NCBI RefSeq assembly: GCF_030651185.1
Contig: NZ_JAUSCJ010000013.1
Coordinates: 62,001 to 126,000 of the forward strand
From: Phenylobacterium sp.
GTDB taxonomy: Bacteria > Pseudomonadota > Alphaproteobacteria > Caulobacterales > Caulobacteraceae
Direction of reading: 5' to 3'
Length of the DNA stretch: 64,000 bases
The notes below the pieces were generated by a model. That model did not search any database, was not told where the DNA came from, and was given only the letters and a program-made list of their open reading frames with translations. Below, in pieces: positions 11,412 through 35,116 of this stretch. Within the stretch, counting starts at the first letter, position 1. Each line of letters starts with the position of its first letter. Made by a program: the position numbers and the translations under genes.

Positions 11412-11440
11412 TGCGGCCTCCTGGCCCTCAGATTGGCGGG

Positions 11441-12337
11441 TCAATTTCGGAAACTGCTGATGGCTTGAACCAGCTGAGCGATCTCGCCCAGGCTCGCCCC
11501 CGTCTCCCGCGTGGTCCTGTTGCTCGTCCCCGTCCCGTCCTCCACCTGTCCCTTGAACAGCGCCAGGGGCAGGCCCGAGAACATGTCGATCTGCGACGCC
11601 AGCGTGGTGATCGGCGCCTTGCGCATCTGATCGTCCACGCCCCGGATCTGAGCCCCCAGGGCGGCCTGGGTGGTGATGTCGGCCCGGTTGCTGTTGGCGC
11701 GGTCTTGGGCGGCCTGCAGCTTCATCTGGCTGTCCTGCAGGGCCAGTTGCGCATTGGCCGCCGACGCCTGCTGGCGGCGATCGGCGTCCTGGCCCGCCAG
11801 GCTGGCGCTGGTGGTGAACATCTCCGACAGCATCTGGGCCAGTCCGCTGCTGCGGGCCCGCGCCAGTTCGCCCTCGGTCTGCGACCTGGCGAGGGCCGCG
11901 CCGGAGCCGCCAAAGGCCCCCTGCCCGGCGATGGCCAGGTCCTGCGCCGCCCGCGTCCGCCCCGCATTGGCGTCGAAGTCGACGCTGGCGGCGTCGATCA
12001 CCTGCTCGCGGTAGGGATTGTAGTAGGCCGACAGGTTGTCCAGCAGGCTCGCCGACCCGACGCTGGGCGCGCCACCGCTCAGCAGGCTGGAGAACCAGGC
12101 GTCGCTGCCCACCGTCTGGGCGTTCCCGCCGCGCAGCCCGCTGAGGCCCGCCGCCCCGCCCTCGGCCTGGCGCTCCAGGGCCGACACCGGCGCCACATAG
12201 TCATAGGGACTGGCGCCGCCGATCCTCTGGATCCCGAGATCCAGGCTCTGGGCCATGTTCGTCACCCATTCGGGGTTCGTGGGCGCCGTCACGGTGTGGT
12301 TCCTCGTGGTCTCGTTCGTCTTGGTCTTCTTGCCCAT
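11441..12337 (-). CDS. Phage structural protein, possible DNA-ejection protein
   Basis: 298 aa, start ATG at 12337 inside a TGATG overlap with the preceding gene. After a basic N-terminus (MGKKTKTNETT) it is rich in Ala, Gln and Ser with long helices (SGAALARSQTEGELARARSS, then QDADRRQQASAANAQLALQD). This composition is typical of podovirus internal-virion or ejection proteins (P22 gp7/gp20 type), and the position after the tail hub agrees. I see no sequence motif that proves it. No membrane segment or signal peptide. Confidence 0.6.
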   Translation of the reverse strand: MGKKTKTNETTRNHTVTAPTNPEWVTNMAQSLDLGIQRIGGASPYDYVAPVSALERQAEGGAAGLSGLRGGNAQTVGSDAWFSSLLSGGAPSVGSASLLDNLSAYYNPYREQVIDAASVDFDANAGRTRAAQDLAIAGQGAFGGSGAALARSQTEGELARARSSGLAQMLSEMFTTSASLAGQDADRRQQASAANAQLALQDSQMKLQAAQDRANSNRADITTQAALGAQIRGVDDQMRKAPITTLASQIDMFSGLPLALFKGQVEDGTGTSNRTTRETGASLGEIAQLVQAISSFRN

Positions 12338-12714
12338 CAGAGCGTCCTTTGCAGTTGATGTCCGACGGCTGAGTAACCCAGCCTGCGCAGCACGCGGCTC
12401 CAGCCGGCGCGCCCGTCGATGGTGATGTGGCGGCAGCCCTGCCCTCGGGCCCAGGCCTCGAGGCCGGGCCGCAGGCTCAGGATCTCGGCCAGGTCGCCGC
12501 CCGCCAGCCAGATGTGCAGGCGGAGGACGCCGTCCTCCCAAACCCGCTGGGTGACCACGGCCGACGCCTCGCCGGCCCAGAGCTGGACCCGGCCTGAGAG
12601 GATGTCCTCCAGCAGTTGCGCCTCCGTGGCGCACTCGCCCCGCAGCGCCGGCAGCAGCCAGGCGCGGTACCGCGCCCAGCCCACCGCCCCCTCAGCGGCT
12701 TCCGGCCGCGACAA
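12337..12714 (-). CDS. Small phage protein with GNAT-like C-terminal part
   Basis: 125 aa. The C-terminal half (ARGQGCRHITIDGRAGWSRV, then LRRLGYS) resembles the GNAT-fold-like small proteins that many phages carry among virion genes; the acetyl-CoA P-loop (Q/RxxGxG/A) is not convincing, so catalysis is doubtful. It overlaps the hub gene by 23 bases and is followed by a TGATG junction, so it belongs to the same translationally coupled block. Confidence 0.6.
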   Translation of the reverse strand: MSRPEAAEGAVGWARYRAWLLPALRGECATEAQLLEDILSGRVQLWAGEASAVVTQRVWEDGVLRLHIWLAGGDLAEILSLRPGLEAWARGQGCRHITIDGRAGWSRVLRRLGYSAVGHQLQRTL

Positions 12715-14200
12715 TGTCGAACACCGGGCGGCCGATGCGGCAGGCGGTCGGCGCCGAGCCGCCGGAGAACCGCACGCGGAACATCCGCCCGGTGGTCCTC
12801 AGGTCCACCCGGTCGGCGCCGGGGGCCATGCTGTAGGCGCCGTTCGAGGTCTCTTCCCCCTGCGGCGTGAACCGGCTGATGACCGAGACCGAGACCGGCC
12901 CGACCTGATCGGCCATGTCGGGCCACAGGCCGCGCACCATCGCCGTGGCGTTCTCGTCAAGGCACTGGTCGGCGCTCTCCACGAACCAGGAGAAGGCGCC
13001 GCCGTCGGCGCTCTGCCCGCGCTCATGCCAATGGGCCGCGCCATTGGGGTCGACCCCGATCGGATACTGCGACGGCCCGGCGTCGACCATCGCGGTGCGC
13101 GCCATGATCCCCCGCGACCAGGCCCCATCCATCAGTGACATCAGCAGGTAGCGGCTGTTCTCCGAACCCTCGCGGGCGTCGGGGTAATCGAACCGGATCT
13201 CGCTGAACGACGAGGATGACGAGGCGACGATCTTGTCGCCTTGCGACGCCGCCAGATTGTCGGCCAGGGCCTCGCGGATCGCGCACGGCAGCGGCTCCAC
13301 CGACCCGCCCAGCCCGTAGCGGTAGAACTGCAGGTCGGGGCCTAGCCAATAGGCCTGCTGCCCCACGACGACCGCGGCGTTGGGGCCGATCAGACCGCAC
13401 TTCTCCCCCACCCGGTCGAACCGCCAGGGCTGGGCCAGGGACCCCACGAAGTATCCCAGGAACAGCGCGTGGCTGGTCCAGATCAGCAGGTTGGGCCCGA
13501 TCACCCGGCCAGCCACGATCCGCCCGCCGCCCGGCAGGATGTACTCCCGCGCGGTGGTCGAGGGCCCGGTGATCCACTCGGTGTTGTTGCGCACCGACGA
13601 ATGCCGCAGGCACAGCGGGTTGAAGGTCCCCGAGACCTCCTCGTCGCACCCCAGCGCGAACACCTGGTCGGTGAGCGCCACCAGCATATGCGTCACCCGG
13701 GCCGGCGCGTTGCTCAGCGGGGCCGCCGGGGCGCCGGTGTTGTTGGTCCAGGCATGGATCGCGCCCCCGCGCGGACAGGCGATGAGATTCTCCCCCCACG
13801 CCCCCAGCGACCAGGTGCGCGGGAAATAGTCCCCCGACGACGGCTCCGACCAGGCGCCGGTCGAATAGGCCCCGGTCCCGTACCCCTGCCCGCCGGTTCC
13901 ATCCACGAGGCCGGCGGTCAGGCCGGCGGGAGTGATGTCGTAGAGACCGCCGCCGAGGAACACCTGCAGCCGGCTGTGGGTGCCGAAGGCGACGTTCAGC
14001 ACCGCGGCCTTGTCGGTCCAGGGCAGGACGTCCCGGCAGACGCCGGTCAACGGCGCGTCCACCAGCCGCTCCCAGCCGCCGATCACCTGGGGTCGGCCCC
14101 GCCAGAACCTAACATTGGACCCATCCGCCCAACGGCCCGCAGCCGCAAAACGGGTGTCGTCCGCCGAGAGCCCCGGCGGGATGTCGAGGGGTATGCGCAT
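12692..14200 (-). CDS. P22 gp10-like tail hub / packaged-DNA stabilisation protein
   Basis: 502 aa, close to P22 gp10 (about 470). Repeated beta-rich segments with W and G (RFAAAGRWADGSNVRFWRG, LNVAFGTHSRLQVFLGGGLY, WSLGAWGENLIACPRGG, QQAYWLGPDLQFYRYGL) indicate a propeller-like fold as in phage packaged-DNA stabilisation proteins. These close the portal after packaging and join the tail. Start ATG at 14200. It is the first gene left of the methyltransferase insertion and lies four structural genes from the gp4-like adaptor. Confidence 0.75.
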   Translation of the reverse strand: MRIPLDIPPGLSADDTRFAAAGRWADGSNVRFWRGRPQVIGGWERLVDAPLTGVCRDVLPWTDKAAVLNVAFGTHSRLQVFLGGGLYDITPAGLTAGLVDGTGGQGYGTGAYSTGAWSEPSSGDYFPRTWSLGAWGENLIACPRGGAIHAWTNNTGAPAAPLSNAPARVTHMLVALTDQVFALGCDEEVSGTFNPLCLRHSSVRNNTEWITGPSTTAREYILPGGGRIVAGRVIGPNLLIWTSHALFLGYFVGSLAQPWRFDRVGEKCGLIGPNAAVVVGQQAYWLGPDLQFYRYGLGGSVEPLPCAIREALADNLAASQGDKIVASSSSSFSEIRFDYPDAREGSENSRYLLMSLMDGAWSRGIMARTAMVDAGPSQYPIGVDPNGAAHWHERGQSADGGAFSWFVESADQCLDENATAMVRGLWPDMADQVGPVSVSVISRFTPQGEETSNGAYSMAPGADRVDLRTTGRMFRVRFSGGSAPTACRIGRPVFDIVAAGSR

Positions 14201-14264: not shown

Positions 14265-15032
14265 ATGAAGGTCTCTGCGCCGGTTCGGCCCTACTATTCG
14301 GAAAAGGGCGCCTCTACGGCGTTCTATGATTTGGTCACGGCGGGTGACGCCTCGCTCGCTGGGGACACAGACCTCTATGCGAGCCTTGCTCCGGCTGGAG
14401 GTTCGATCCTCGAACTCGGGGCAGGAACTGGCCGAGTTGCTATCGCGCTCGCAGAACGCGGCTTCCACGTTACGGGTCTCGACCTGGCGCCAGCGATGCT
14501 GGCCCAGGCCAACGCCAAGCGCGCGGCTTGCAATCCCGATGTTGCGTCGAGGGTCCGCTTCGTCCAAGGCGACATGACCTCGTTCGCGCTTCAGGAGCGG
14601 TTCGACTCCGTGATCTGCACCTTTTACGCTCTGGCCCATCTCCCGGTCGGAGCGGCGTGGGCGAACACGTTCAAGGCGGTCGCACTTCACCTGGCTCCAG
14701 GAGGAACTGCGGCGTTTCATTTGCCCGTAGCGGCGAAGATGGGCTCTGCGCCCCCACCTCCAAACATGCCGGTCTTTAGCCAGCCGACCGCCGATGGTGG
14801 GACCCTTACCCTCTTCGTAGCCAAGCAAACGATGATGGAGCGCGTCGGTCGGATGGACCTCGTCCTGCGCTATGTGGTCACCGGCCCCAAGGGCGTCCGA
14901 GAAACCCTGGAACGTCTGACTTTGTATTCAGGCGACCCGGAACCCTACGCGGCGGCTTGCGGTCTGAGCAGACAGCAGGACCCGGTCAGCCTGGGCGATG
15001 ACGGGTTCGTCCACCTGTTCGTGCGGGATTAG
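14265..15032 (+). CDS. Class I SAM-dependent methyltransferase (moron in phage cassette)
   Basis: 255 aa. The SAM-binding motif I is clear (ILELGAGTGRVAIALAERGF, about 45-64), followed by acidic motif II (VTGLDLAP) and motif IV-like DSVICTFYALAHL; the C-terminal half is beta-rich. Substrate unknown. It is on the plus strand while all surrounding tail genes run leftward, it splits them, and its codon use looks less GC-biased than its neighbours (many TTG, TTC, CTT, TCG). It therefore looks like an independently acquired moron. It overlaps the end of the glycine-rich gene by four bases. Confidence 0.85.
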   Translation: MKVSAPVRPYYSEKGASTAFYDLVTAGDASLAGDTDLYASLAPAGGSILELGAGTGRVAIALAERGFHVTGLDLAPAMLAQANAKRAACNPDVASRVRFVQGDMTSFALQERFDSVICTFYALAHLPVGAAWANTFKAVALHLAPGGTAAFHLPVAAKMGSAPPPPNMPVFSQPTADGGTLTLFVAKQTMMERVGRMDLVLRYVVTGPKGVRETLERLTLYSGDPEPYAAACGLSRQQDPVSLGDDGFVHLFVRD

Positions 15033-15613
15033 CCCCCCTCACGAACAATTACGAGGTAGCCCGCCGCTCCCCCAAATCCGACACCTGACACGCCACCACC
15101 ACCGCCCGGGCTAGTCGGCGGCGCACTTGGCGGCGTGCCGCCACCACTGAACAGGCCGCTGGATCCAGACGCGCCACCGTTCACTCCAATCCTATTTCCA
15201 CCGCTCACATTTATGTCGCCGCCGATCGCCGTTCCGCCTGCGCCCCCATCTTCGCCCTTCACACCACCACCAGCAGACACGACCCCCGAGGCGAGGGTGA
15301 CCGTCGTTGCTGCGCCGGTGTCGTTGGCGAGCGTCGGGCCGCCAACCGTTACCGAAACGATCTCTCCAGACCGGACTGGCGCAACCTTCTGCGCGTGAGC
15401 GCCGCCCCCGCCGCCTCGGTTCATTGAGCCGAAACCCCCACCCCCAGAGCCCCAAAGCACAAACCGGTACCGCCCGGTCTTCGGGCACTGCCAGTTGTAG
15501 CTCCCCGCCGCATAGGTCCGGACGTAGTTGGAAACGACGGGGGCCGAGGCCGCCTTGCGCGGCGGGTTCATCGCGGCGGCGGGGCTCTGAAGCCCCTTCA
15601 GGCCCGGACGCAT
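15029..15613 (-). CDS. Glycine-rich phage tail-type protein
   Basis: 194 aa from the ATG at 15613 (TGATG junction). Residues about 40-190 are dominated by Gly, Ser, Thr and Val in a repetitive pattern (FVLWGSGGGGFGSMNRGGGG, VTVGGPTLANDTG, ending GGAAGYLVIVREGG). This resembles glycine-rich receptor-binding or tail-tip domains of phages, which form polyglycine-II bundles. It is a good candidate for the host-recognition component, but the function is inferred from composition and position only. Confidence 0.65.
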   Translation of the reverse strand: MRPGLKGLQSPAAAMNPPRKAASAPVVSNYVRTYAAGSYNWQCPKTGRYRFVLWGSGGGGFGSMNRGGGGGAHAQKVAPVRSGEIVSVTVGGPTLANDTGAATTVTLASGVVSAGGGVKGEDGGAGGTAIGGDINVSGGNRIGVNGGASGSSGLFSGGGTPPSAPPTSPGGGGGVSGVGFGGAAGYLVIVREGG

Positions 15614-16023
15614 CAGTAGTCGCCCCACTCGGCGGCGAAGACGACGCCGGTGTTGCTGACCCCGATGGCGACATAGAGCTCGGCGCCGGCCAGCAGCACC
15701 ATCGGCAAGTCTTCGCTGTAGCCGAAGTCGGTCGCGATCTGCCCCGTCGTCTGGGCCACCGTATAGGCGGCCATCAGCACCGAATTGATCAGCTTCTTCG
15801 TCGTCCCGGCGTCATACGAGACATAGAGCTGCAGCTCGGTGGCGGTGTTGGTCGCCCGCGCCATCGCGGTGATCTTGGTGACCCGCGCGCCGTTCGGCCC
15901 CGCGGTCAGCAGCTTCTGGGTATTGGCCGGCGTGTCGGAATAGGTCGAGTTCGCCGTCGTGCAGACCGCGACGCCGGACTTCGGCGTCTGGGGCGTGATG
16001 ACGTAGTTGCCGGTGACGGCCAT
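15613..16023 (-). CDS. Phage virion-associated protein, unknown function
   Basis: 136 aa, Thr/Ala/Val-rich, beta-type sequence (TKITAMARATNTATELQLYV, LAGAELYVAIGVSNTGVVF). Such proteins accompany tail-fibre genes in small phages. No catalytic motif seen. Start ATG 16023; 12-base gap to the preceding gene. Confidence 0.6.
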   Translation of the reverse strand: MAVTGNYVITPQTPKSGVAVCTTANSTYSDTPANTQKLLTAGPNGARVTKITAMARATNTATELQLYVSYDAGTTKKLINSVLMAAYTVAQTTGQIATDFGYSEDLPMVLLAGAELYVAIGVSNTGVVFAAEWGDY

Positions 16024-16035: not shown

Positions 16036-16620
16036 TTAGAACAGCAGTGAGAAGGCGATCGCCCGCGCGTTGGTCGCCGGGGAATAGTCGGAGATGTCGG
16101 CGACGGTCGGCGCCTTCGGGGCCCAGGCGACGCCGTCGCAGAACAGCGCCTTGCCGGCGTTGCCGGTCACGGCCGGCAGCGAGCCGGTGGCCGCCAGGAC
16201 GGCGGTGTCGATGTAGCCCTTCAGTCCGTACCCGGCGTAGCCAAGTTCGGCGGCCTGGGCGCCGTCGCAGAACACCACCACCCGGGCCCCGGCGTCGACG
16301 ACCACCCCCGCCCCGACCCCGGTCGTCACGGTCACGGCGGCGGAGCAGGCGTTCCAGATCAGATAGGTCTTGCTGACCGACGGGATCGTCACCGCGAACG
16401 GTCCGGCGCCGGTGAACTTCAGCAGGGCGGCGCGGGCCTCGTCGTCGCCGTTGGAACTGGTCAGCGCATGGTCGCCGGTCAGGGCGATCACCGTCAGGCC
16501 GGCGATCGCCGTGTCGATCCGGCTCAGCACGTTGTTCAGCTTCGGCGCCCCCCAGGTGTTGAGGTTCTCGCCGGCCGCCTGCAGCTCCAGGCGCAGGCGC
16601 GGGGTGTAGGAGGAAGGCAT
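16036..16620 (-). CDS. Phage tail-fibre-like structural protein
   Basis: 194 aa. The N-terminus (YTPRLRLELQAAGENLNTWG, then NNVLSRIDTAIAG) is the familiar start of short tail-fibre/base proteins in prophages of Alphaproteobacteria; the remainder is beta-rich (ALLKFTGAGPFAVTIPSVSK, AVTVTTGVGAGVVVDAGARV). The ATG follows the preceding stop with a one-base overlap. Inferred to be part of the tail tip, together with the glycine-rich protein. Confidence 0.7.
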   Translation of the reverse strand: MPSSYTPRLRLELQAAGENLNTWGAPKLNNVLSRIDTAIAGLTVIALTGDHALTSSNGDDEARAALLKFTGAGPFAVTIPSVSKTYLIWNACSAAVTVTTGVGAGVVVDAGARVVVFCDGAQAAELGYAGYGLKGYIDTAVLAATGSLPAVTGNAGKALFCDGVAWAPKAPTVADISDYSPATNARAIAFSLLF

Positions 16621-16859
16621 CAGAGGGTCGCTCCCGTGTCTTGCCGGATCCAGTGGACCCCGTCGGAATGGGCCAGGATGTTCAGGTCGCTCACCAGCAG
16701 CACCGTGCGCGGCCAGTTCGCCGCGGGCGGCAGGGCCGCCTGGGCGCAGGCATAGATCGGCGTCGGCGCCTCGGGCGCGCGCCAGGCGCGGACCGCCGCC
16801 AGCAGGTCGTTCAGCACCGGCCGCAGGTTGGCCGGCGCATCCGGCGGCAGGGGAGTCAT
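16620..16859 (-). CDS. Small phage protein, unknown
   Basis: 79 aa. Proline/alanine-rich N-terminus followed by a short beta segment ending HSDGVHWIRQDTGATL. It overlaps both neighbours by a few bases, so it is translationally coupled to the adaptor gene. I do not recognise the family. Confidence 0.6.
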   Translation of the reverse strand: MTPLPPDAPANLRPVLNDLLAAVRAWRAPEAPTPIYACAQAALPPAANWPRTVLLVSDLNILAHSDGVHWIRQDTGATL

Positions 16860-17476
16860 GCGCCGCTGGCCAGCAGCAGGGGTTCGACCCCCAGGGTCGC
16901 CAGCGCCTTGCCCCGCGCCTCCTTGGCGCGGGCCTCGGCCAGGGCGGCCTCGAACCGCGCCATGAACAGCGACAGCAGCTCGGCGTCCCGCAGATAGGGC
17001 GCGGCCTCCACCAGGGCTCCGAACAGGTAGAGGTCCGGATAGTCCGTCAGCACGGCGTTGCTGGGCTGGGCCTCGGACAGGGCCAGCCGGCCCACCATCC
17101 GCAGGGTCAGGCCATAGGCCCGGTCGCAGGGTCGGTCGAAGGCGATGGCCCCGGCGTTCAGCGTCCAGGCCTGGGGGGCGCCGGCGGTGGCGCTGATCGT
17201 CAGCGAGGCCGGGTCCATGAAGCGCAGCGGCGTCCGCCCGCCGGAATCCAGGATCCAGAGCGCGATGGGCTCCCGGAACGCCGCCGGCAGGCTCACCGTC
17301 CGGAGGCCGACCCCGGCGGTCAGCGCTTCCTCTGCCTCCATCATCCGTAGACGGAGCACACGGTTCAGCCGCGACTCCGCCAGGGCGATGAAGTCCCCTG
17401 TCCGGTCGGCCAGGTCGCCGCGCTCCAGCCAGTCGGCGATCGCGGCCTTCAGGTCGGCATAGGTCGAGAGCGCCAT
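16856..17476 (-). CDS. P22 gp4-like head-completion / adaptor protein
   Basis: 206 aa. The opening (MALSTYADLKAAIADWLERG, DLADRTGDFIALAESRLNR) and the later YPDLYLFGALVEAAPYLRD are characteristic of the phage adaptor family that includes P22 gp4, which binds the portal after packaging. P22 gp4 also has muramidase activity; no such activity can be claimed here. Helical, soluble. Position between coat and hub genes agrees with the role. Confidence 0.75.
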   Translation of the reverse strand: MALSTYADLKAAIADWLERGDLADRTGDFIALAESRLNRVLRLRMMEAEEALTAGVGLRTVSLPAAFREPIALWILDSGGRTPLRFMDPASLTISATAGAPQAWTLNAGAIAFDRPCDRAYGLTLRMVGRLALSEAQPSNAVLTDYPDLYLFGALVEAAPYLRDAELLSLFMARFEAALAEARAKEARGKALATLGVEPLLLASGA

Positions 17477-17578: not shown

Positions 17579-18775
17579 CTAGTTGTTGGCCAGGCGGCAG
17601 GCCAGCTGCGGCCGCAGGGTCTTGAAGCCGTACAGGACGTCCAGCCGGCACGGGAACTTGTCGTTGTTGATGTCGTACTGGCGCACGATCCGCATCGAGA
17701 TCCCGTCGAAGGCCTCGCGCGCGGCGAAGTCCACGCCGCGCGGCATCACCATGTCGGCGGTGGCGAAGGCGAAGGCGCTCTGGTGGTAGGCCATGGACAG
17801 TCCGTGAGGGGTCGAGGCCGTGCCGGCCACGGTCAGCAGGGCTGCGGCCGCCGGCGAGTTCGAGACGTTCTGACCCGCCCCGCTGGTGATGATCGCCGGG
17901 CTGATCTGCAGGGTCGACAGTCCCGAGCCGTTGGAACTGGCGTCGGCGGTGACCACGAAGCTCTGGAGCACCCCCGTGGGCTGCTTGGTCTCCGGGTGCA
18001 CGCGGAACACGCCCGCGATGGTGAACACGTCGCCGGCCTTCAGCACCGCCTGCGAGGCGGTCCAGCCGCTGGTGGCCAGGCTCGATCCCGTCTGGCTGGC
18101 GGTGCTCACCGCCGGCGTGCCCGGACGCGCGCCGGGCGTGTGCGACGGCCACAGGGTGTTCTCCATGAAGTCGAACCCGGCGGTCCGGCCCATGAAGCCC
18201 TCGCGGTATTGCTTGGTCAGGTTGGTCTTGTCGTTGAACAGGCCCTTCAGCGCGTCCACCAGGTCGACATTGTCCTGGGTGTTGAGGTTGCAGGTGCGGC
18301 TGGCCAGGGGCGCCAGGTTGTCCACCAGGATCTTCCGGCCCTGCAGGATCTTGGCGAAGGTCGCCGGCGCGCCGGGACTGCTCACCTGATTGTAGACGTC
18401 CTTGTACATCGACATGGCGTCGGCCTCGATATTGGCCGCCAGCACGCTCATGGCCGGCTCCAGAACCCGGTCGCTGAAGTCGTCCAGGCTCATGGTCAGG
18501 TCGACCGAGGTGAAGTTCAGGTCCACCCCCTTCTGGGTTTGGACCTTCAGGTCGACGCTGGTCTCGGTGGTGTCCTGGGCGGCGAGCGTCGAGCCCGTCC
18601 GCACGACGTACTGGTTGGGCAGGCGCACCTTCAGGGTGTCGCCCACCTTGGCGCCCTGGCGGGCGAAGCTGTCGTCGTACTCGCGGGTGATCGACCCCAC
18701 GAAGTTCAGTTTCTGATGCAGCACGCGCAGGGCTTCGCGCGTGACCGCGGTGGGGGAAAGCAGGGTGTTGGGCAA
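17579..18775 (-). CDS. Major capsid protein, P22 coat protein family
   Basis: 398 aa, close to P22 gp5 (430). The N-terminal pattern (ALRVLHQKLNFVGSITREYD, then GDTLKVRLPNQY, TVDLKVQ-like beta strands) and the long central insertion fit the P22 coat family with an HK97 fold. The C-terminus (RIVRQYDINNDKFPCRLDVL, YGFKTLRPQLACRL) also matches. It builds the procapsid with the scaffold gene product encoded upstream at 20.4 kb. The start at MPNTLLSP (18775) fits family starts. Confidence 0.85.
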   Translation of the reverse strand: MPNTLLSPTAVTREALRVLHQKLNFVGSITREYDDSFARQGAKVGDTLKVRLPNQYVVRTGSTLAAQDTTETSVDLKVQTQKGVDLNFTSVDLTMSLDDFSDRVLEPAMSVLAANIEADAMSMYKDVYNQVSSPGAPATFAKILQGRKILVDNLAPLASRTCNLNTQDNVDLVDALKGLFNDKTNLTKQYREGFMGRTAGFDFMENTLWPSHTPGARPGTPAVSTASQTGSSLATSGWTASQAVLKAGDVFTIAGVFRVHPETKQPTGVLQSFVVTADASSNGSGLSTLQISPAIITSGAGQNVSNSPAAAALLTVAGTASTPHGLSMAYHQSAFAFATADMVMPRGVDFAAREAFDGISMRIVRQYDINNDKFPCRLDVLYGFKTLRPQLACRLANN

Positions 18776-19576: not shown

Positions 19577-20398
19577 CTATCGCCCCTTCAGCGCCTGTTC
19601 GTTGCGCCGGCGGATCCATTCCCCCGTCGCCATCTCGTCGCGCACGCCGCCGCCGGGGACCGCCGCCCCGGTGACCGAGATCGCCGGCCGCACGGCCTGG
19701 GTCTGGGCCAGGGTCCTGGCCGAGGCCTGCTGCTTCTCCAGCTGCTCGCCCAGGTGGGCGCGGTGCAGGATCTTCCACAGCCTCGGATCGGCGATCTCCC
19801 GCAGCTCCTCCAGGGTCACCCCGAAGGCGCCGGCATATTCCACCAGCTTGGCGGCCACCTCGGGCGACCAGCCGTCGATCTCCTGGCTCAGCACCCGGCC
19901 CGTCTCGGCCAGTTGCGCCGCGGCTCGGCGCTGCGCCTCCAGCCGGCCCTGCTCGGTCCTGTGGGTCAGCGACCAGGCGAACTGCTCGCGTGCCTGCTGG
20001 GTCTGGGTGAACTCCGCCCAAGCCGCCTGGGCGCCCTGCGGGTCGGCCTGTCCGTACGCCTCCCAGTCGACGCCTTGATAGGCCTCGAGCTGCTGGTCCA
20101 GCAGGTGCAGCTGCGCCCGGTCGCCGATATCGGCCTGGGCCAGCTCCACCTCCTGTGCATGGGCCCGGCGCTGCGCCTCCAGTGAGCGGCGATGCTCCCC
20201 CAGTTCCTGGGTCTTCCGGGTATAGTCCCCGTGCATCAGGAACGCGCCCTTCAGGGCCCGCGGGATGCGGTAGACCTGCCCGTCGTGCTCCACCTCCTCA
20301 TGGTCGTCACCCTCGAGTTCGCCGGGCGCCTGGGCCCCGGCGACCTGCGCCAGGACGCCAGCGTCCACGGCCAGATCGGTCGCGTCTTCGTCTCTCAT
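19577..20398 (-). CDS. Phage scaffolding protein
   Basis: 273 aa from ATG 20398 (GAGGA seven bases upstream). Highly charged, Gln/Ala/Glu-rich and almost all helical (RRSLEAQRRAHAQEVELAQA, AAWAEFTQTQQAREQFAWSL), with an acidic N-terminal third and a basic C-terminal tail (EWIRRRNEQALKGR). This composition and the position between portal and coat genes are typical of P22-type scaffold proteins, which guide coat assembly and leave before packaging. It is the first gene behind the leftward promoter at 20565-20608. Confidence 0.78.
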   Translation of the reverse strand: MRDEDATDLAVDAGVLAQVAGAQAPGELEGDDHEEVEHDGQVYRIPRALKGAFLMHGDYTRKTQELGEHRRSLEAQRRAHAQEVELAQADIGDRAQLHLLDQQLEAYQGVDWEAYGQADPQGAQAAWAEFTQTQQAREQFAWSLTHRTEQGRLEAQRRAAAQLAETGRVLSQEIDGWSPEVAAKLVEYAGAFGVTLEELREIADPRLWKILHRAHLGEQLEKQQASARTLAQTQAVRPAISVTGAAVPGGGVRDEMATGEWIRRRNEQALKGR

Positions 20399-20564
20399 GA
20401 TGTCCTCAGGATGATCGGCCCACTCGGGCCGGTGATGACGCACGCGCAGAGCCGCTCACCGGCGGTCCCATCGCGTGGATCGATAGAAGCCGAGGCGCTC
20501 ACCGGACAGGCGGCGGCTCGCAAGCGGTTCGGAGGCTCAGGACGCACTCTCGACCAATGACGAA

Positions 20565-20608
20565 ATCATCGCAAAAACGCGCGAGCCCGTCAAGAACAAA
20601 TCAAGAAC
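20565..20608 (-). promoter_or_regulatory. LexA (SOS) box overlapping a promoter for scaffold-coat genes
   Basis: Plus strand 20594-20608 is GAAC-N7-GAAC, the exact alphaproteobacterial LexA box (GTTC-N7-GTTC on the minus strand). Directly adjoining it on the minus strand is a -35 TTGACG (20593-20588), a 17-base spacer and a -10-like GATGAT (20570-20565). The scaffold start is about 165 bases further on. The whole segment resembles 26725-26768, which has the same layout. LexA bound here would block the -35, so DNA damage should switch the promoter on. Confidence 0.75.
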
Positions 20609-20611
20609 AAT

Positions 20612-22504
20612 TCAGACCTGCTGACGCCCCTCCATCGCCCGCATCCTGTTGGTCTCAGCCTCGAAGGCCTCGATCTCCAGCTTGCGGGCCTCGTGGGCGC
20701 GGTCCTGTTCCAGGGCGGCGATCTTGGCGCCGGCGGCCTGCAGCGCCTGGGCGAGCTTGGCCATCTGCGCCTTGGCCGCCTCCACCTCTGGCGTCGCGCC
20801 ACGGGCCTCGCCCGGCACCATGGCCGCCAGCCGTCCGGCGATCTCGTCGGCGCCGGGCCAGTCGAGGTTGCGGGCCAGCAGGTCGCCGATCACCGGGGCG
20901 GCCGGCGGATAGGCGCGGATCAGCTCGATCATCTGGGTCGCCGCCTCCTCCCGGCGGCTGGTGAAGCTCGGCCCCGACTTGACGGTCAGGTCGTACTTGC
21001 CCGCAGCCAGGTCGTAGATGCGGGTGATCTTCCGCGCCTGGTCGGCCGGGTCGGGCGCCTGGAATTTTTGGTTCACCGGCGCCAGCCTGGCCTCCCCGCC
21101 CGGCCCCAGCACCCGCACCACACGCGGCGCGGAATAGACCTTGGGGATCAGGTCGATGAGGATGCGGCCGGCATGCCGGATCGCCCGGCTCAAGTTGTCG
21201 ATATAGTGGAAGGTGGAAACGTCGCCTTCCCGCTGCCGCGCCATGATCGCCCGCCCCGAGGTCTCATTGGACCGCGCCCCCAGGCTGGCGTCGTGCAGCC
21301 CCATGATCGACTTCATGTCGTCGCTGGCGTTCAGCGCCTCCTGCAGCGCGCCGGCCGGGACGCCGCTGAAGGGCTGGCGCATCGGCGGCTCGGAGCCGTC
21401 ATATTCGATATAGGCGTGGGTCTGCACATTGGCCGTCGCCCACTTCGACGCATCGGTCTCGAAGGCTCCCTTGCGACCGATGAACGGCGCCTTCGGGGCC
21501 AGCGCCACCAGCTCGGTCGACGTCGTGCGCCAGTAGTTGAACATCCGCTGCGGGTCCTTGGCGTCGCGCACCAGGCTGCGCAGCCGGCGCTTGCCGTCGA
21601 CGTGCAGTTCCTCGCCATAGACCGGCACGATGGGGATGAACCGGCCCGCCCAGTCGACAGTCTCCAGCACCTCGGCGCCGTTCATGATCGCCTGCACCAC
21701 CTTGCTGGAGGCCACGGCCCGCGGCCGCCCGATGACGCTCACCCCCAGGGCGTCGAACATCGCCTTCTGGGCCTCGTAGACGGAGCGCTCCACTACCTGG
21801 CCATCGGACAGCGCCAGCAGGGTCTTCATCACCGCCTCGCGCCGCCAGTACTCGGCCACCATCACCCGGTCGCCCTCCAGCCAGGGACCGCCCAGCCCGG
21901 CATAGGAGTCGGCGCTCCAGTCGACGGCGTCGGCCCCCTTCCAGCGCGCCTCGAAGGCGGCCTTGGGCAGGGTGTCCACCACGAAAGCGGTGTTCCAGTC
22001 GGACGAGTCGGCGGCCGTCGAATGGGGATCGCCATAGATGCTGAACGGGTTGGCCACCCGCTCAATCACCAGGTCCTGGTCGAAGCTGTCCTCGCCGGCA
22101 TAGCGGGTGTTGATCCGGAAGTATCCGAACCCGCCGGTCACCGCGAAATCCAGCGCGGTGTCATAGGCCACCTCGGCGTCGCTGGACTGCTCGATGTTGC
22201 GGATCAGGCCGTTGAAGATCTCGGCGGTCTCCGGGTCGGCGCCGTCGTCCACGGGATGGCAGCTGATCGCCGGCTTGTTCTGCCGCGCGTCGTTGACCAC
22301 CTGGCGGATGAAGGCCGGCAGCCGGTTGATGGTCAGGCAGGGCCGCCCGTCCAGCTCCCGGTCACGCCGCACCTTGTCGGGCCATTGTTCCCCCAGCCGG
22401 GCGAAGCGGATGTCGTCCAGCGCCTCGCGGCGGTTCTCTGACTCGTGCTCGCAAGCCAGGTCGAACGCCTCACGGGCGTCCTTCAGGATGTCTTCGGTTT
22501 TCAT
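20612..22504 (-). CDS. Phage portal protein (P22 gp1-like)
   Basis: 630 aa from ATG 22504 (AAGGA six bases upstream); P22 gp1 is 725. Features of the P22-type portal family are the N-terminal helical region with FARLGEQWPDKVRRDRELDG and RPCLTINRLPAFIRQVVNDA, followed by the stem/wing region and a long C-terminal helix rich in Ala, Gln and Glu (EAAKAQMAKLAQALQAAGAK) that would form the barrel. It forms the dodecameric DNA gate at the capsid vertex, docks the terminase, and later binds the gp4-like adaptor. Its stop is three bases from the SOS box that controls the next genes. Confidence 0.88.
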   Translation of the reverse strand: MKTEDILKDAREAFDLACEHESENRREALDDIRFARLGEQWPDKVRRDRELDGRPCLTINRLPAFIRQVVNDARQNKPAISCHPVDDGADPETAEIFNGLIRNIEQSSDAEVAYDTALDFAVTGGFGYFRINTRYAGEDSFDQDLVIERVANPFSIYGDPHSTAADSSDWNTAFVVDTLPKAAFEARWKGADAVDWSADSYAGLGGPWLEGDRVMVAEYWRREAVMKTLLALSDGQVVERSVYEAQKAMFDALGVSVIGRPRAVASSKVVQAIMNGAEVLETVDWAGRFIPIVPVYGEELHVDGKRRLRSLVRDAKDPQRMFNYWRTTSTELVALAPKAPFIGRKGAFETDASKWATANVQTHAYIEYDGSEPPMRQPFSGVPAGALQEALNASDDMKSIMGLHDASLGARSNETSGRAIMARQREGDVSTFHYIDNLSRAIRHAGRILIDLIPKVYSAPRVVRVLGPGGEARLAPVNQKFQAPDPADQARKITRIYDLAAGKYDLTVKSGPSFTSRREEAATQMIELIRAYPPAAPVIGDLLARNLDWPGADEIAGRLAAMVPGEARGATPEVEAAKAQMAKLAQALQAAGAKIAALEQDRAHEARKLEIEAFEAETNRMRAMEGRQQV

Positions 22505-22569
22505 GCAGGATCCTTCGGCCCGCGGCGCTCGGCCCACGGGTCGCTGAAGTGTCGGAAGGGAGGCGCGGC

Positions 22570-22908
22570 TCAGGCCGCGGGGTCGGCCGGCTTGACGCGC
22601 CGCGCCAGGATCAGGCCCGTCACCACGGCGAGCGCCGCGGCCGCCAGGCAACCGACCGCATACGGCATGTCCGGCGCGCCTCGATGGACGGCCAGGGGAA
22701 TGGCCACCTGGACGCCGGTCAACACGCCTCCGGCGATACAGACGTAGGGTGCGGCCGGAAGGCCGGCCAGCAGCGTGCCGAACGCCGCCAAGGTCGCGAA
22801 CATCGGCAAGGCCAGGCCGAACCCGTCGTCGAGCATGTGCACGCCCACATAGACCAGGATGTAGGCGCAGGACGCCAAGGCGAGATAGGTGGTCACGTCC
22901 TTGCGCAT
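22570..22908 (-). CDS. Small multi-span membrane protein in phage cassette
   Basis: 112 aa from ATG 22908 (GGGAGA upstream). Four hydrophobic segments (YLALASCAYILVYVGVHM, LPMFATLAAFGTLLAGL, VCIAGGVLTGVQVAIPLAV, AVGCLAAAALAVVTGLIL) and a basic C-terminus. No family recognised. The size and topology would be compatible with a holin-like or exclusion protein, but no endolysin gene is nearby. It overlaps no other supported gene. Confidence 0.6.
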   Translation of the reverse strand: MRKDVTTYLALASCAYILVYVGVHMLDDGFGLALPMFATLAAFGTLLAGLPAAPYVCIAGGVLTGVQVAIPLAVHRGAPDMPYAVGCLAAAALAVVTGLILARRVKPADPAA

Positions 22909-22976
22909 CTGATCTCCCGCCCTGGGCGCCGCCGCGAAGGTCGACGCCGCGATGCTATCCAGGTCATCCAAGGTCG

Positions 22977-23396
22977 TCACCAGTGTTTCGGACGCTGTTT
23001 GGGAGCCATGGACTCCATCGTCCTGTCCCCCACCACATAGGTCCCCGCTCCCAGGGTCACGCCATCGGCCGCGGTGAGTCCACCGCCCGTCACCCCGGTC
23101 ACGCCCCGCAAGGCGCCAAGCCCCTGTAGGCCGCCGCCGCCGATCGAGCTCGCGGCGATCAAGGCGAGGTCCCGGGCCACCCCGGGAAGGTTGATGTTCC
23201 GGGTCCAGCGGCCGAAGTCGAAGGCACCCGTCGTGGTCCACCCGGGAACGGGATGGAGCTTCCCATCAGGGCCCGGCTGAAAGACGTCGGTGCGTTGGGA
23301 ATCGAGGGGCCGCCGCTTCTGCGGCGCAGCAGCCAGGAGGGGGCGGTTGGAGGCGATCAGTTGGTTCGCGCGAACGCGGTGTGCGGGGGTCGGCAT
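22977..23396 (-). CDS. Hypothetical phage protein
   Basis: 139 aa from ATG 23396, with a strong AAGGAGACAG ribosome binding site. Basic N-terminus with Pro, then WTTTGAFDFGRWTRNINLPG and a glycine-rich, small-residue C-terminal half (SSIGGGGLQGLGALRGVTG). No known motif. Located between terminase and portal genes, so probably part of the morphogenesis transcript. Confidence 0.6.
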   Translation of the reverse strand: MPTPAHRVRANQLIASNRPLLAAAPQKRRPLDSQRTDVFQPGPDGKLHPVPGWTTTGAFDFGRWTRNINLPGVARDLALIAASSIGGGGLQGLGALRGVTGVTGGGLTAADGVTLGAGTYVVGDRTMESMAPKQRPKHW

Positions 23397-23421
23397 GGTC
23401 TGTCTCCTTGAGGAAAGGGCC

Positions 23422-24762
23422 TCACCCCATCCAGTTCAGCCCCTGCGCCCGCGCGCTCTTCGGCCGCGCCGCGCCCTGGCGGTTGACGGCGAACTCGCCA
23501 AAGGCGTCGGCCCCGTGGCTGGCGGCGTCGTGCAGCGGCCCGACGAAGCTGCGCGTCGCCGCGCTCCAGCGCTTGCGATAGGCGCCCAGCCGGTCCAGCC
23601 CCACGGCGCACTTCTCGGCGTCGAACCAGGTCAGCGGGATCATCAGCCGCGCGGCGTTGATCCGCTCGTCCGGCCCTTGCGCCGTGCCCACGCAGATCGG
23701 CCAGACCCCGAGCCCACCCAGGGTCTCCAGCCGCGAGCGACCGCCGGCCCCCAGCTCACGAACCATCACGTCGTGCGGCAGGTGGTGGGTCCCGTAGACA
23801 TAGGGCTTGCCCGACAGCGCCTGGGCGACGATGGCGTCCAGCCCCTCGCCGGAGGTCTCGAAATAGTCGATGGCGCGCACCTCGCGCCCCACCTGCTGGA
23901 AGAACCAGATGGCCGTATAGTCGTCGATCCCCAGGTCCCAGGCGGTGTCCACCTTCAGCGCCGGGTCGTGCGGCACGCGCCCGATCCGCCCGGCCGCCTC
24001 GGCTTCCCGCAGCGCCGCGCCGTAATAGGCGCCGGGCGCGGCGGCGTCGAAGGCCACCAGGTACTCGGTGTCGAACTTCGCCTGTCCCTCCGCCTCCGAT
24101 CCCGCCTCGGCGATCAGCTCGGTCCGCTCCACCGCCAGCTGCGCGGGCGTGAACACGTCGGTCTCCGTGGCCGGCGATTTCAGCGTGAACCAGGCCGGAT
24201 CGGCGGCGCGCACCTCGAAGGCCCGCGTCGCATGCCCCCGCCCCCGCGGCGTCCAGATGAACAGCGCCCAGCCATCGCTCTCCACCAGGATCGGCCGGAT
24301 GTAGGTCCAGGCCTCCGGCTTGGCGAGCGCCCACTCGGAGAACACCACCCCGCGCACCGAGGCCCCCACCAGCCGGTCGTAATTGTCCGAGCCCAACACC
24401 TGCCAGACCGCCCCATTGCGGAACTCGATCTTCATCTCCGCGTCGACGGTCCTGGCGCGGAACCCCCTGGGAAAGGCCTCGTCGATCCGCTTGGCGCCGG
24501 TGTGCGGGTTGACCGCGTCCCAGATCGCCTTGCGCCCCTGGGAGGCCTCCGGCAGCAGGTGCCAGTAGGTCCCGGGGTTCCTCACCACCTGGGTGGCGGT
24601 CCAGTGCAGGGCCACCTCGTCCTTGCCCCACCGCCGGTGCGCCACCACGTCGGCCCGCTTGCCGCCCTTCTGCAGGTAACGGGTCAGCGGCTTTTGATAC
24701 TCGCGCGGCTCCCAGCCGCCCGGCACCCGCAGGTTAAGCTCAGAACTCGACCACCTCGACAT
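23422..24762 (-). CDS. Terminase large subunit
   Basis: 446 aa, a normal size. The ATPase half has a Walker A variant (HRRWGKDE, 42-49), Walker B (GVVFSEWA) and a coupling motif (FIWTPRGRGH). The nuclease half begins at VDTAWDLGIDDYTAIWFFQQ with the acidic residues of the RNase H-like fold. It cuts phage concatemers and drives DNA into the procapsid through the portal. The ATG at 24762 overlaps the small-subunit gene by 23 bases. All motifs appear intact, so the cassette should be able to package DNA if expressed. Confidence 0.92.
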   Translation of the reverse strand: MSRWSSSELNLRVPGGWEPREYQKPLTRYLQKGGKRADVVAHRRWGKDEVALHWTATQVVRNPGTYWHLLPEASQGRKAIWDAVNPHTGAKRIDEAFPRGFRARTVDAEMKIEFRNGAVWQVLGSDNYDRLVGASVRGVVFSEWALAKPEAWTYIRPILVESDGWALFIWTPRGRGHATRAFEVRAADPAWFTLKSPATETDVFTPAQLAVERTELIAEAGSEAEGQAKFDTEYLVAFDAAAPGAYYGAALREAEAAGRIGRVPHDPALKVDTAWDLGIDDYTAIWFFQQVGREVRAIDYFETSGEGLDAIVAQALSGKPYVYGTHHLPHDVMVRELGAGGRSRLETLGGLGVWPICVGTAQGPDERINAARLMIPLTWFDAEKCAVGLDRLGAYRKRWSAATRSFVGPLHDAASHGADAFGEFAVNRQGAARPKSARAQGLNWMG

Positions 24763-25351
24763 TGATCACCACCGCGTCCGGATGTTCCTGGTTGATGCGC
24801 GCGCCATAGGATCGCGGCGCCAGCTTGGCGGCCTGCCACTGGCGGCTGGCGATGCGCGTCTTGTCGACGGCCAGGGTTTCGGGCGTCGCGCTGTCGGCGA
24901 TCTCCCGGACTTCCTCGAACAGTCGGTCGGCCTGGATCTCCCGGGCGTTAGCGTACAGGGCAACGAACTCAGGATGTCGTTTCAGCCAGTGATAGATGGT
25001 CGAGACCACCGGCATGTCCTCATCCTCGCAGATGCGGATCAGGGCGCGGCCCTCCGCCAGCCTGCGGCAGAACTCCACGGCGGTGTCGAGGTTGTAGTGG
25101 CTAGGCTCCCCGCCCTTGTGCGGGCCGCCGCCGGCCGCCAGGGCCAGGGCGTAGCTCTCGGCGAAGTCGGCCCGGCGCTTGAGCCACTTGAGCACCCCCG
25201 ACTGCGACGGCATCCCGCGCCGCCGACAGATGGCGGCTAGGCTGTGGCCCTGGGCGGTGAGATCGCAGATCGCCTCGGCGATCTCCTGCGAATAGGCGAC
25301 GGCCAGCGCCGCGGGCACGGCGTCGCGCCCCGGCTCCGGGGGATCGGTCAT
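24740..25351 (-). CDS. Terminase small subunit
   Basis: 203 aa from ATG 25351. Two related helix-turn-helix units can be seen: AEAICDLTAQGHSLAAICRR...SGVLKWLKRRADFAESYALA and DTAVEFCRRLAEGRALIRIC...TIYHWLKRHPEFVALYANA. This is the layout of Sf6/P22-like small terminases that recognise the packaging site. The C-terminal tail (DAVVINVEVVEF) probably contacts the large subunit. Upstream, 25352-25507 holds a repeat-like GC hairpin region rather than a promoter that I can recognise. Confidence 0.82.
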   Translation of the reverse strand: MTDPPEPGRDAVPAALAVAYSQEIAEAICDLTAQGHSLAAICRRRGMPSQSGVLKWLKRRADFAESYALALAAGGGPHKGGEPSHYNLDTAVEFCRRLAEGRALIRICEDEDMPVVSTIYHWLKRHPEFVALYANAREIQADRLFEEVREIADSATPETLAVDKTRIASRQWQAAKLAPRSYGARINQEHPDAVVINVEVVEF

Positions 25352-25364
25352 GTCGGATAATCCT

Positions 25365-25500
25365 GATGTTGAACGCCCTCCCCGACCTGGGGAGGGGCAG
25401 ACCGCGACAGCGGTCGGGGTGGGAAATACTTGCCGCACTCCCCCAGCCGTCCGGCGTTCCGCCGTCCACCCTACTCATGAAGGGGAAGGAGAAAGCTCAG
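25365..25500. repeat. Intergenic GC-rich palindromic repeat (probable)
   Basis: Contains CCTCCCC...GGGGAGGGGC and ACCGC-GACA-GCGGT inverted pairs, followed by a segment that reads like the reverse arrangement (CACTCCCCCAGCC ... GAAGGGGAAGGAG). Such paired CTCCCC/GGGGAG elements are frequent between genes in Caulobacterales and relatives. It separates the toxin-antitoxin pair from the terminase genes and could weaken read-through between them. Confidence 0.45.
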
Positions 25501-25507
25501 TCGGCGC

Positions 25508-25774
25508 TCAGTAGTGATACCGGCACTGGGCGATCTCCAGCTGCTGCGTGGCGCCCGCGCCCGTCACCCGATAGACCAGCCGGTCCTCCAGCGTGATCCG
25601 CCGCGACCACCAGCCTTGAAGTTCGCCGCGCAGCGGCTCCGGCTTGCCCGTCCCCTTGAAGGGGGAGCGCGTGCATTCCTTGATCAGGCCGTTCAGCCGC
25701 TCCAGCGTATTGGCGTCGGCCGCCTGCCAATGGAGATAGTCCTCCCAGGCCCGGTCGGCGAAGACCAGCCTCAC
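25508..25774 (-). CDS. yoeB: YoeB-type mRNA interferase toxin
   Basis: 88 aa. Close match to the Txe/YoeB family: DYLHWQAAD, GTGKPEPLRGELQGWWSRRI, RLVYRV and the terminal CRYHY. The catalytic set of E. coli YoeB (Glu46, Arg65, a C-terminal His-Tyr) is conserved as Glu46, Arg65, His87 and Tyr88. It cleaves mRNA on the ribosome when free of YefM. The start is GTG at 25774, overlapping the antitoxin stop (GTGA), the normal coupling of the pair. No truncation, so the toxin should be active. Confidence 0.93.
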   Translation of the reverse strand: MRLVFADRAWEDYLHWQAADANTLERLNGLIKECTRSPFKGTGKPEPLRGELQGWWSRRITLEDRLVYRVTGAGATQQLEIAQCRYHY

Positions 25775-26025
25775 GGCGCGATGAGCTCGCGCTCCGATCC
25801 CTCGCCGGCCTCCAGCTGACGCACCGCCTCGGCCAGACGCTGTGCATTGGCCGGGCTCGACATCAGATGAAGCGTCTCCTCCATCGCGTTCCAGTCGGCC
25901 AGCGACACCATCACCACCGACTCCCCGCGCTTGCGGGTGACGACGACCGGCGCCCGGTCCGCGACGACGCGATCCATCACCTCCTTGAGGTTGGCGCGGG
26001 TGTCTGAGTAGCTGAGCACGTCCAT
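25771..26025 (-). CDS. yefM: YefM/Phd-family antitoxin
   Basis: 84 aa. The N-terminal half (YSDTRANLKEVMDRVVADRA, PVVVTRKRGESVVMVSLADW) is the Phd/YefM DNA-binding fold; the acidic, disordered C-terminal part (EAVRQLEAGEGSERELIAP) would wrap around YoeB. It neutralises the toxin and represses its own operon. A TGTACA-containing operator lies just upstream (26042-26061). The ATG at 26025 is preceded by GGAGG. Confidence 0.92.
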   Translation of the reverse strand: MDVLSYSDTRANLKEVMDRVVADRAPVVVTRKRGESVVMVSLADWNAMEETLHLMSSPANAQRLAEAVRQLEAGEGSERELIAP

Positions 26026-26041
26026 GAGGGCCTCCGGTATA

Positions 26042-26061
26042 TGTACAATATCGCGTACAAT
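26042..26061 (-). promoter_or_regulatory. Putative YefM operator/promoter
   Basis: TGTACA at 26042-26047 and CGTACA at 26054-26059 are spaced 12 bases apart about 20 bases before the yefM start. YefM of E. coli binds palindromes with a TGTACA core. The AT-rich TATTGT on the minus strand could serve as -10. Inference from motif and position. Confidence 0.6.
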
Positions 26062-26085
26062 AGAAGTTAGGGCAAGATCAGCCTC

Positions 26086-26611
26086 CTAGGAGGACTCCAT
26101 TGGCGCCCGAGGACACTTGTCGAGATCCGGATCGATGGCGCGTCGCCAATCCTCTGGCCAACCCTCCCTGATCGAACGGTCACTATCGGCGAGTAGCAGC
26201 AAGAACCTCCCCAAGGAGGAACCGACGGCCCACCGGGGTTGATGGAAGCCATATTCGTGATCGAAGAAATAGACGGCGGGCGTCGCATCGCCGGACGACG
26301 GATCAAGCGCGTAGACGTTGCCGCATCCGTCGCTGAAAAGCGGCGCGGCCTCGGCTGGGAATAGATCGAGGACGATCGTCAGGTCGGATTCCCAACGGCT
26401 CATCCAGGCGTTCCACCACGGATTGTAGCTCGGGAATTCCCCGATTTCGGCGATGTTCTCCCGGTAGAAATCTTCGAGACCCGACGGAAGCGGCCGGCCC
26501 AGCAATTGGCTGACAAAGACAATGACCTGGTCCGACTGGTCGAGCTTCAGCCGCTTCAGCCCGCCGGCCTCTTCGAACCTGCCGAGCGGCCTCCCGGACG
26601 GATACTTTCAT
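26086..26611 (-). pseudogene. SMI1/KNR4 (SUKH) family gene, apparently frameshifted near its start
   Basis: Codons up to the stop at 26086 read as a SUKH protein: RPLPSGLEDFYRENIAEIGE, NPWWNAWMSRWESDLTIVLD, FFDHEYGF. The longest in-frame start is a TTG at 26505 (139 aa), which would cut into the domain. Upstream of it the same frame keeps good coding sense (GRFEEAGGLKRLKLDQSDQV, IVFVSQ) back to about 26605 but has no start codon. An ATG at 26611 lies one base out of frame, and removing one A of its AAA would give MKYPSGRPLGRFEE and a protein of about 174 aa. So a single-base frameshift, or a TTG start, must be assumed. SUKH proteins are often immunity proteins of polymorphic toxins. Confidence 0.6.
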
Positions 26612-26724
26612 ATCGGGCCCTCATTCCGCCCTTCGGCCGAGAAGGTGGCCCACCCGGAGCGCGGCGGCGTCGCGGGGCCGGAAGCCCGTCCCGCGCCTCA
26701 GACGCAGAAACAACCAATGACGAG

Positions 26725-26768
26725 AATGTAGCGAAACTGCGCGACGTCGTCAAGAACAAAACAGGAAC
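26725..26768 (-). promoter_or_regulatory. LexA (SOS) box overlapping a leftward promoter at the right end of the cassette
   Basis: Plus strand 26754-26768 is GAAC-N7-GAAC, the alphaproteobacterial LexA box. On the minus strand it abuts -35 TTGACG (26753-26748), then a 17-base spacer and -10 TACATT (26730-26725). It would transcribe the SUKH gene and possibly onward to yefM-yoeB and terminase. The segment is homologous to 20565-20608, with shared CCAATGACGA beyond the -10. Confidence 0.78.
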
Positions 26769-26770
26769 TT

Positions 26771-35081: not shown

Positions 35082-35098
35082 CTGTATAGAACATACAG
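35082..35098. promoter_or_regulatory. Operator O1: perfect 17-bp dyad
   Basis: CTGTATAGAACATACAG is a perfect dyad of two 6-base arms with a 5-base centre. It lies in the divergent promoter region between the 103-residue gene and the S24 repressor gene, 35 bases (centre to centre) from O2. Confidence 0.8.
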
Positions 35099-35116
35099 GG
35101 AACGAGCAAGATGAAC

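Follow-up and report, generated by a model that had tools for sequence, protein, structure and literature searches.

The 64,000-nucleotide stretch of Phenylobacterium sp. DNA analysed here (hereafter the window; contig NZ_JAUSCJ010000013.1 of the genome we call G000) carries on its minus strand a cluster of phage particle genes, comprising small and large terminase subunits (TerS and TerL), portal, scaffold, coat, adaptor and tail. Two promoters lie within the cluster, each with a LexA-type box directly upstream, and the tail and other structural genes downstream of promoter 2 run to about 11.0 kb (Table 1). Comparison with related genomes makes it probable that this is a vertically inherited particle cluster of Phenylobacterium, derived from a P22-like phage, whose two minus-strand promoters would be repressed by LexA and released by DNA damage.

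Both boxes are perfect GAAC-N7-GAAC sequences on the forward strand and therefore read GTTC-N7-GTTC on the minus strand, and both directly abut their TTGACG −35 elements. Box 1 starts 2 nt past the stop codon of a neighbouring methyltransferase gene and box 2 starts 3 nt past the portal stop codon. A preliminary description of this DNA had reported two perfect boxes with −35 elements, 17-base spacers and −10 elements, and a likeness of the two segments over about 75 bases. All of these elements are present, and the two promoter segments (our repeat family D3) are 74% alike over 68 nt. The box had also been named as the LexA site, and it equals the LexA motif of Caulobacter, GTTCN7GTTC, as given in the available part of PMC12700426. 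A third box of the window (GTTCCCTGTATGTTC) lies on the minus strand at 35089–35103, outside the cluster and some kb from a TIR-domain open reading frame at 31914–32996.

Table 1. Features of the particle-gene cluster and its borders, with window coordinates and the basis of each assignment.
Feature	Position	Strand	Basis or remark
LexA box 1 (GTTCCTGTTTTGTTC)	26754..26768	minus	window sequence; fits Caulobacter LexA motif GTTCN7GTTC (PMC12700426, available part)
Promoter 1	26725..26753	minus	−35 TTGACG 26748-26753, spacer 17 nt, −10 TACATT 26725-26730
SUKH-family (SMI1/KNR4) protein, first gene after promoter 1	26086..26505	minus	E 2.5e-5, just under curated cut-off
Phd/YefM antitoxin	25771..26025	minus	E 8.9e-24
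YoeB-like toxin	25508..25774	minus	E 4.1e-34
TerS, Sf6-like	24740..25438	minus	profile match; two helix-turn-helix repeats by eye
TerL	23422..24762	minus	position beside TerS, weak PDB match, C-terminal homology
P22-like portal	20612..22651	minus	profile match; longest open reading frame, conservation starts near residue 45
LexA box 2 (GTTCTTGATTTGTTC)	20594..20608	minus	window sequence
Promoter 2	20565..20593	minus	−35 TTGACG 20588-20593, spacer 17 nt, −10 GATGAT 20565-20570
Head scaffolding protein, first gene after promoter 2	19577..20443	minus	phrog_3927, E 5.8e-32
P22-like coat protein	17579..18775	minus	profile match
SU10-like head-tail adaptor	16856..17476	minus	E 2.6e-30
Small conserved core protein	16620..16859	minus	in 26/38 loci
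Core protein, weak tail-fibre match	16036..16620	minus	profile match and locus comparison
Conserved core protein	15613..16023	minus	in 21/38 loci
Glycine-rich protein, perhaps tail tip	15029..15628	minus	no PHROG match; name inferred from sequence
Methyltransferase-like inserted gene (cargo)	14265..15032	plus	by eye from translation
Virion structural protein	12692..14200	minus	phrog_3287, E 2.3e-47
Core protein	11441..12634	minus	locus comparison
Last core gene, coiled-coil-like, hydrophobic C-terminus, perhaps holin-like	11031..11444	minus	by eye
DUF2239 gene, borders cluster	10465..11034	plus	
tRNA-Thr, marks fixed locus	10227..10301	plus	

The strength of the signal depends on whether the −35 element is counted. 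Bare boxes number three in the window against 0.99 expected, with at least three in 6 of 100 shuffles, and 109 genome-wide against 45 for a control with the pattern reversed; this excess is a weak signal. The composite of box and −35 start (GTTC-N7-GTTC-TTGAC) occurs only five times in the 4.1-Mb genome, two of these in the window cluster, and its reversed control does not occur. Over 101 genomes of the genus there are 259 composites and three control matches, a strong signal. In the genome scan by which the preliminary description wished to gauge chance occurrence, the box alone is common and the composite is rare.

The composites are also placed and oriented non-randomly. In 20 fetched stretches from related genomes, 23 lie on the strand of the structural genes and none on the opposite strand; these 23 are drawn from 71 in the same 20 whole genomes but fall within 0.70 of 80 Mb (binomial p about 9e-30, a value that ignores shared descent). 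Among loci L061–L098 together with the window slice, portal-strand boxes comprise 38 of class I (box with TTG immediately after) and 49 others, and opposite-strand boxes in L061–L098 number five. The best 80 of 191 loci from viral collections hold 156 sense and 24 antisense boxes, compared with 16 and 10 for the control pattern, and 64 sense and one antisense class I sites. By hand sums, the 57 of these loci with at least 70% portal identity account for 152 sense and three antisense boxes. In the 23 more divergent loci (L295–L319 without L305 and L312) the boxes are mostly opposite to the portal strand, 21 against four; these divergent relatives may be true prophages whose early genes LexA controls.

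The 105 distinct class I sites give a consensus of box, TTGAC, 17 bp and tAGagT, then TCAgcGTtGAt..TGCGCC, and the layout of promoter 1 matches it. In the comparison across related genomes that had been suggested earlier, box, −35, spacer and −10 are all conserved. Conservation reaches from the box to about 20 nt beyond the start and includes the leader TCAgcGTtGAt..TGCGCC, which lies downstream of the promoters at +48 to +67 from the box. A structured RNA in this leader was not supported (mean z −0.73 over 86 leaders, 38% of them below −1, with no consensus structure). The boxes stay perfect even between loci whose heptamers differ. In the compact relative G050 one class I box, followed by TTGCGC, precedes the entire run from TerL to an endolysin-like gene, whose counterpart in G061 is a Peptidase_M15_3 endolysin.

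A further 107 distinct sense-strand boxes lack an adjacent −35 (class II) and follow the form GTTCnnn-A/T-rich-GTTC (e.g. L067 11998 and L076 12549). This set was reduced from 125 by dropping boxes that several relatives carry directly behind the portal (TTGAC-GTTC..GTTCTGATGG), which by eye are the last portal codons. A −35/−10 pattern was also sought under the class II boxes and discarded, its scores hardly exceeding those of a shifted control.

Both promoters carry the GTTCN7GTTC operator by which predicted members of the LexA regulon of Caulobacterales are recognised. The resemblance to the Caulobacter SOS regulon extends to the relative L061, where the box at 11930 has the heptamer of the published GTTCttgttatGTTC; phage particle genes, in contrast, are unmentioned as targets in the available part of PMC12700426. 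In the genome studied here a box lies 48 nt ahead of the matched domain of lexA itself, and boxes also stand before a DNA/RNA nuclease gene and before two solitary TerS-like genes.

Other explanations of the boxes have to be set against these data. Taken alone, the three bare boxes of the window are unremarkable and would suit a chance origin; set against the excess of composites over control and their complete strand bias, chance becomes vanishingly improbable, and the conservation of the sites already refutes it. A dedicated activator, either encoded by the element or GafYZ-like, might instead bind the direct repeat by the −35 in place of LexA. Class II activator sites abut the −35 at a fixed distance and orientation, as these boxes do, and the orientation bias of the boxes is extreme. 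To judge by eye, however, most boxes in the rest of this genome point at the downstream gene too, lexA being an exception, and the genes with a box in front include the nuclease gene and lexA. Composites identical to those of the cluster stand at L208, L210 and L215 of the same genome and are found in genomes of the genus that have no portal match, so that the factor probably belongs to the host and not to the element; reading through the gene lists of compact relatives, we recognised no conserved regulator gene. We consider such an activator quite unlikely. Predicted direct control by LexA, of the toxin–antitoxin (TA)/terminase/portal half and of the scaffold/coat/tail half, is well supported by the identity of the motif, the promoter architecture, the strand bias and the conservation in dozens of related loci. 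The preliminary description had proposed this control in place of a phage repressor–antiterminator cascade; the predicted control is supported by the sequences, but the contrast with a cascade misses that the gene set behaves as a fixed and inherited one.

Relatives of the portal occur in 48 of the 101 genus genomes. In 26 of these the portal and the DUF2948 flank lie, by eye, within about 40 kb on one contig; in three (G037, G017 and G054) they share a contig at distances of about 64, 83 and 282 kb; and in 19 the flank, again by eye, is on another contig or unmatched. The core genes found keep one order beside tRNA-Thr, DUF2948 and hisD in 20 of 20 fetched genomes, a count that is partly true by construction since these genomes were picked for having portal and flank on a shared contig. 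The contigs of G006 and G040 begin at the portal, matches to the core in the divergent G012 were limited to portal and coat, and the fetched stretch of G010 (L330) lay outside the analysis. In G050 the cluster occupies about 12 kb; in other genomes it is longer. A coat match at E 1e-40 was obtained in 16 of 398 genomes of the order, 13 of them in this genus, the window genome included.

The genes inserted into the cluster are largely of ordinary chromosomal kinds, with 68 Pfam families, 25 of them listed, among 114 cargo proteins; three of these proteins match HTH_3. PADLOC matched one of the 114, and a reading of the cargo as a defence island was rejected on that count. There was no match to PF00589 (tyrosine integrase) among those listed for the 20 fetched stretches, where tyrosine integrases were the only integrases searched for and weaker matches were unlisted. 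At the tRNA-Thr of the window genome, the one genome scanned for att-like repeats, just chance-like repeats of 13–15 bases were present, and in the gene lists of compact relatives no dedicated repressor or replication genes were recognised. Judged from these sequences, the cluster appears to lack the integrase and attachment sites that mark a temperate prophage, and it appears fully endogenized in the host genome. An HWE kinase gene was considered as a host flank marker and dropped; it is full-length only in G000 and so useless for recognising an empty site.

The history of the cluster follows that of its host. Trees built from five core proteins and from rpoB for 17 genomes (without the divergent G012, portal 40%, and without G061, G031 and G040, which gave no rpoB match) have 10 of 14 splits in common, a number reached in none of 5000 label shuffles (mean 0.23, maximum 3). 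Mantel correlations with rpoB distances, also without G012, range from 0.38 to 0.71, with 0.71 for the portal, 0.69 for the adaptor, 0.64 for the gene at 12692, 0.60 for that at 16036 and 0.56 for TerL (0/999 shuffles each). These comparisons indicate mostly vertical inheritance and co-diversification with the host, the coat alone fitting less well. The ratio of non-synonymous to synonymous change (dN/dS) lies between 0.07 and 0.63 over 30 gene pairs (five pairs for each of six genes, best-matching segments), indicating that the cluster is under purifying selection.

Loss is nevertheless visible in relatives. A deletion in G008 joins window position 11138 straight to 26721–26772 and leaves the 3′ end of the last core gene as a scar; in G038 about 10744 meets 26732, and the junction in G009 is similar. 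All three retain box and −35. In three relatives that lost the cluster by deletion (L205 about 7174–7221, L206 about 2192–2228 and L186 about 3681–3712), one end of the deletion always falls in the LexA promoter, with a scatter of about 12 bp, and the other end varies; the box remains perfect. Remnants in G003, G041, G044 and G099 keep TerL and LexA promoters and have no portal match, and no cluster gene was present in the roughly 20 kb read in G053, G051, G018 and G032.

Two further accounts of the cluster draw on these observations. An ordinary temperate P22-like prophage, integrated repeatedly at tRNA-Thr and bearing LexA boxes incidentally, would explain the adjacency to a tRNA gene, and relatives do occur in viral collections. 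It would also suit the gap of about 14 kb between DUF2239 and the tRNA in G043 and the wide portal–flank spacing in G037, G017 and G054, of which the latter two have integrase matches 12–15 kb from the portal; these cases suggest that other elements may use this spot. The prophage account is already disfavoured by the want of a listed integrase match and of an att-like repeat, by a cluster tree that tracks rpoB, by the deletion scars, by near-confinement to one genus and by chromosomal-type genes between the structural genes, and it seems improbable. Alternatively, the cluster could be a decaying relic whose promoters are leftovers without present function, as the partial or complete losses in many genomes and the missing endolysin match at the locus of G000 would allow. 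The purifying selection in most gene pairs, the 37 of 52 matched portal places without an inner stop and the boxes that are perfect even where heptamers differ speak against decay, and we regard a relic as rather unlikely.

Several observations also weigh against a maintained, LexA-controlled cluster. The portal is absent from 53 of the 101 genus genomes, the bare box is not rare, and the sites in related genomes are not independent of one another. The box of lexA is oriented opposite to the lexA gene and is without the T-rich core. The stretches read in G015, G012 and G098 contain boxes but none of the class I promoters, and in G050, G061, G067 and G084 the class I boxes are followed by TTG without a full TTGAC. 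The coat tree fits the host least (Spearman 0.38, reached by 10 of 999 shuffles), which suggests exchange. Fifteen of the 52 matched portal places are flagged with one or two stops; in the four plus-strand flagged portals inspected, the stops fall at residues 3–16, before the likely start. Finally, an endolysin match is present at the locus in 10 of 21 loci, with none at that of G000 or in the G066 stretches examined; in G014 such a match shares contig C46 with portal and coat. The sole M15 match in G000 sits in another phage-like cassette with no box nearby and was for that reason rejected as a second locus of the cluster, making particle release from this strain doubtful.

We nonetheless prefer an inherited cluster under LexA control. 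Motif, promoter geometry, conservation, strand, fixed locus, co-diversification and purifying selection are read from sequence; LexA binding, damage induction and packaging of host DNA by the terminase are inferred. LexA on the direct repeat abutting the −35 would block RNA polymerase at promoter 1, serving SUKH, TA, terminase and portal, and at promoter 2, serving scaffold, coat and tail. DNA damage leads to RecA-stimulated self-cleavage of LexA. Damage would thereby release both promoters together and yield particle proteins with no prophage-type repressor, and the terminase might then package host DNA, a function like that of gene transfer agents (GTAs).

According to the available part of PMC9662315, a GTA has particle proteins derived from Caudoviricetes, is fully endogenized and is mostly inherited vertically, co-diversifying with its host; it further packages random host DNA, cannot package its own full gene set and delivers DNA to other cells. 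By their families, the particle proteins here are Caudoviricete-derived (P22 portal, coat and scaffold, Sf6-like TerS and SU10 adaptor), and the cluster is a good candidate for a new, damage-triggered GTA. It is possible, and we suggest it tentatively, that this GTA was domesticated independently from a P22-like phage and wired directly to the SOS response, so that damaged cells of a population would package chromosomal DNA and share it as a repair template just when LexA falls.

Known systems resemble the Phenylobacterium cluster in different respects. The RcGTA-like GTAs (Rhodogtaviriformidae, including the Caulobacter crescentus GTA) are likewise phage-derived head–tail clusters of Alphaproteobacteria, chromosomally fixed and vertically inherited, but stem from other phage stock than the present cluster with its P22-like portal and coat. 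Caulobacter GTAs promote survival after DNA damage; they came to light through RogA and GafYZ, which also control them, and the available part of PMC9632790 reports no direct control by the SOS response. Transfer has been shown for them, as for BhGTA/VSH-1 of the unrelated host Brachyspira, and is conjectural for the Phenylobacterium cluster. The particles of BhGTA/VSH-1 are induced by DNA-damaging agents and its fixed cluster is of similar size at 16.3 kb (PMC9662315, available part, in whose main text LexA has no occurrence). With P22/Sf6-type podoviruses the cluster shares the portal, coat, scaffold and Sf6-like small terminase families; it differs in having no listed integrase, and all matched phage records are below 60% identity (245 for the portal, 104 for the coat). 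The genes of phage GIL01 of Bacillus thuringiensis are, to our knowledge, unrelated to those of the cluster. In GIL01 host LexA replaces a dedicated phage repressor, at the late promoter included, but it is a true temperate phage in which LexA has phage gp7 as its partner and the late promoter depends on phage gp6 (PMC6182141, available part).

Our literature search, which took in few subscription papers, listed no account of such an element in Phenylobacterium, nor of a LexA-controlled GTA. The available part of PMC9662315 evaluates three GTA groups that were exapted independently and whose genetic basis is known; if our reading is correct, the P22-derived, inherited cluster of Phenylobacterium would be a further one, and its switch, the LexA of the host itself, appears to be very simple. 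If a GTA were controlled directly by the SOS response, a single inducer would allow a direct test of the idea that GTAs are maintained as a source of repair templates.

PHROG and Pfam models did not identify TerL. In PDB it weakly matches a large subunit of a phage terminase, and its C-terminal part is homologous to GGRGSGKS proteins that precede the portal in Caulobacter and other relatives. The motif-like HRRWGKD and SEW, together with several acidic residues in the C-terminal part, do not vary among 18 aligned sequences. The N-terminus carries HRRWGKD in the window lineage, in place of the GGRGSGKS type of the Caulobacter relatives (e.g. L083 8121–9374), whose portal is 63–65% identical to that of this lineage. 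The differing N-terminal motif and the homologous C-terminal part suggest a domain replacement.

Elsewhere in the window genome, the sole full RecA match (C32:140695–141480) has an AT-rich upstream region, with an integrase match about 1–2 kb away; the assembly may lack the host recA, or contig C32 may be mixed. The two solitary proteins of the Sf6 small-terminase family, each with a LexA box just upstream, are at C4:22547 (L005) and C11:167202 (L210), on contigs other than that of the sole portal match, and could possibly be dispersed partners of the cluster. At L208 1526–2970 (C8:196025) a class I LexA promoter is followed by a small protein with an EIHHTIPL motif and then by a second protein, by eye like a cargo protein beside the portal in L097. 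This pair has no PHROG match and, from its sequence, looks like an SOS-controlled toxin–immunity pair.

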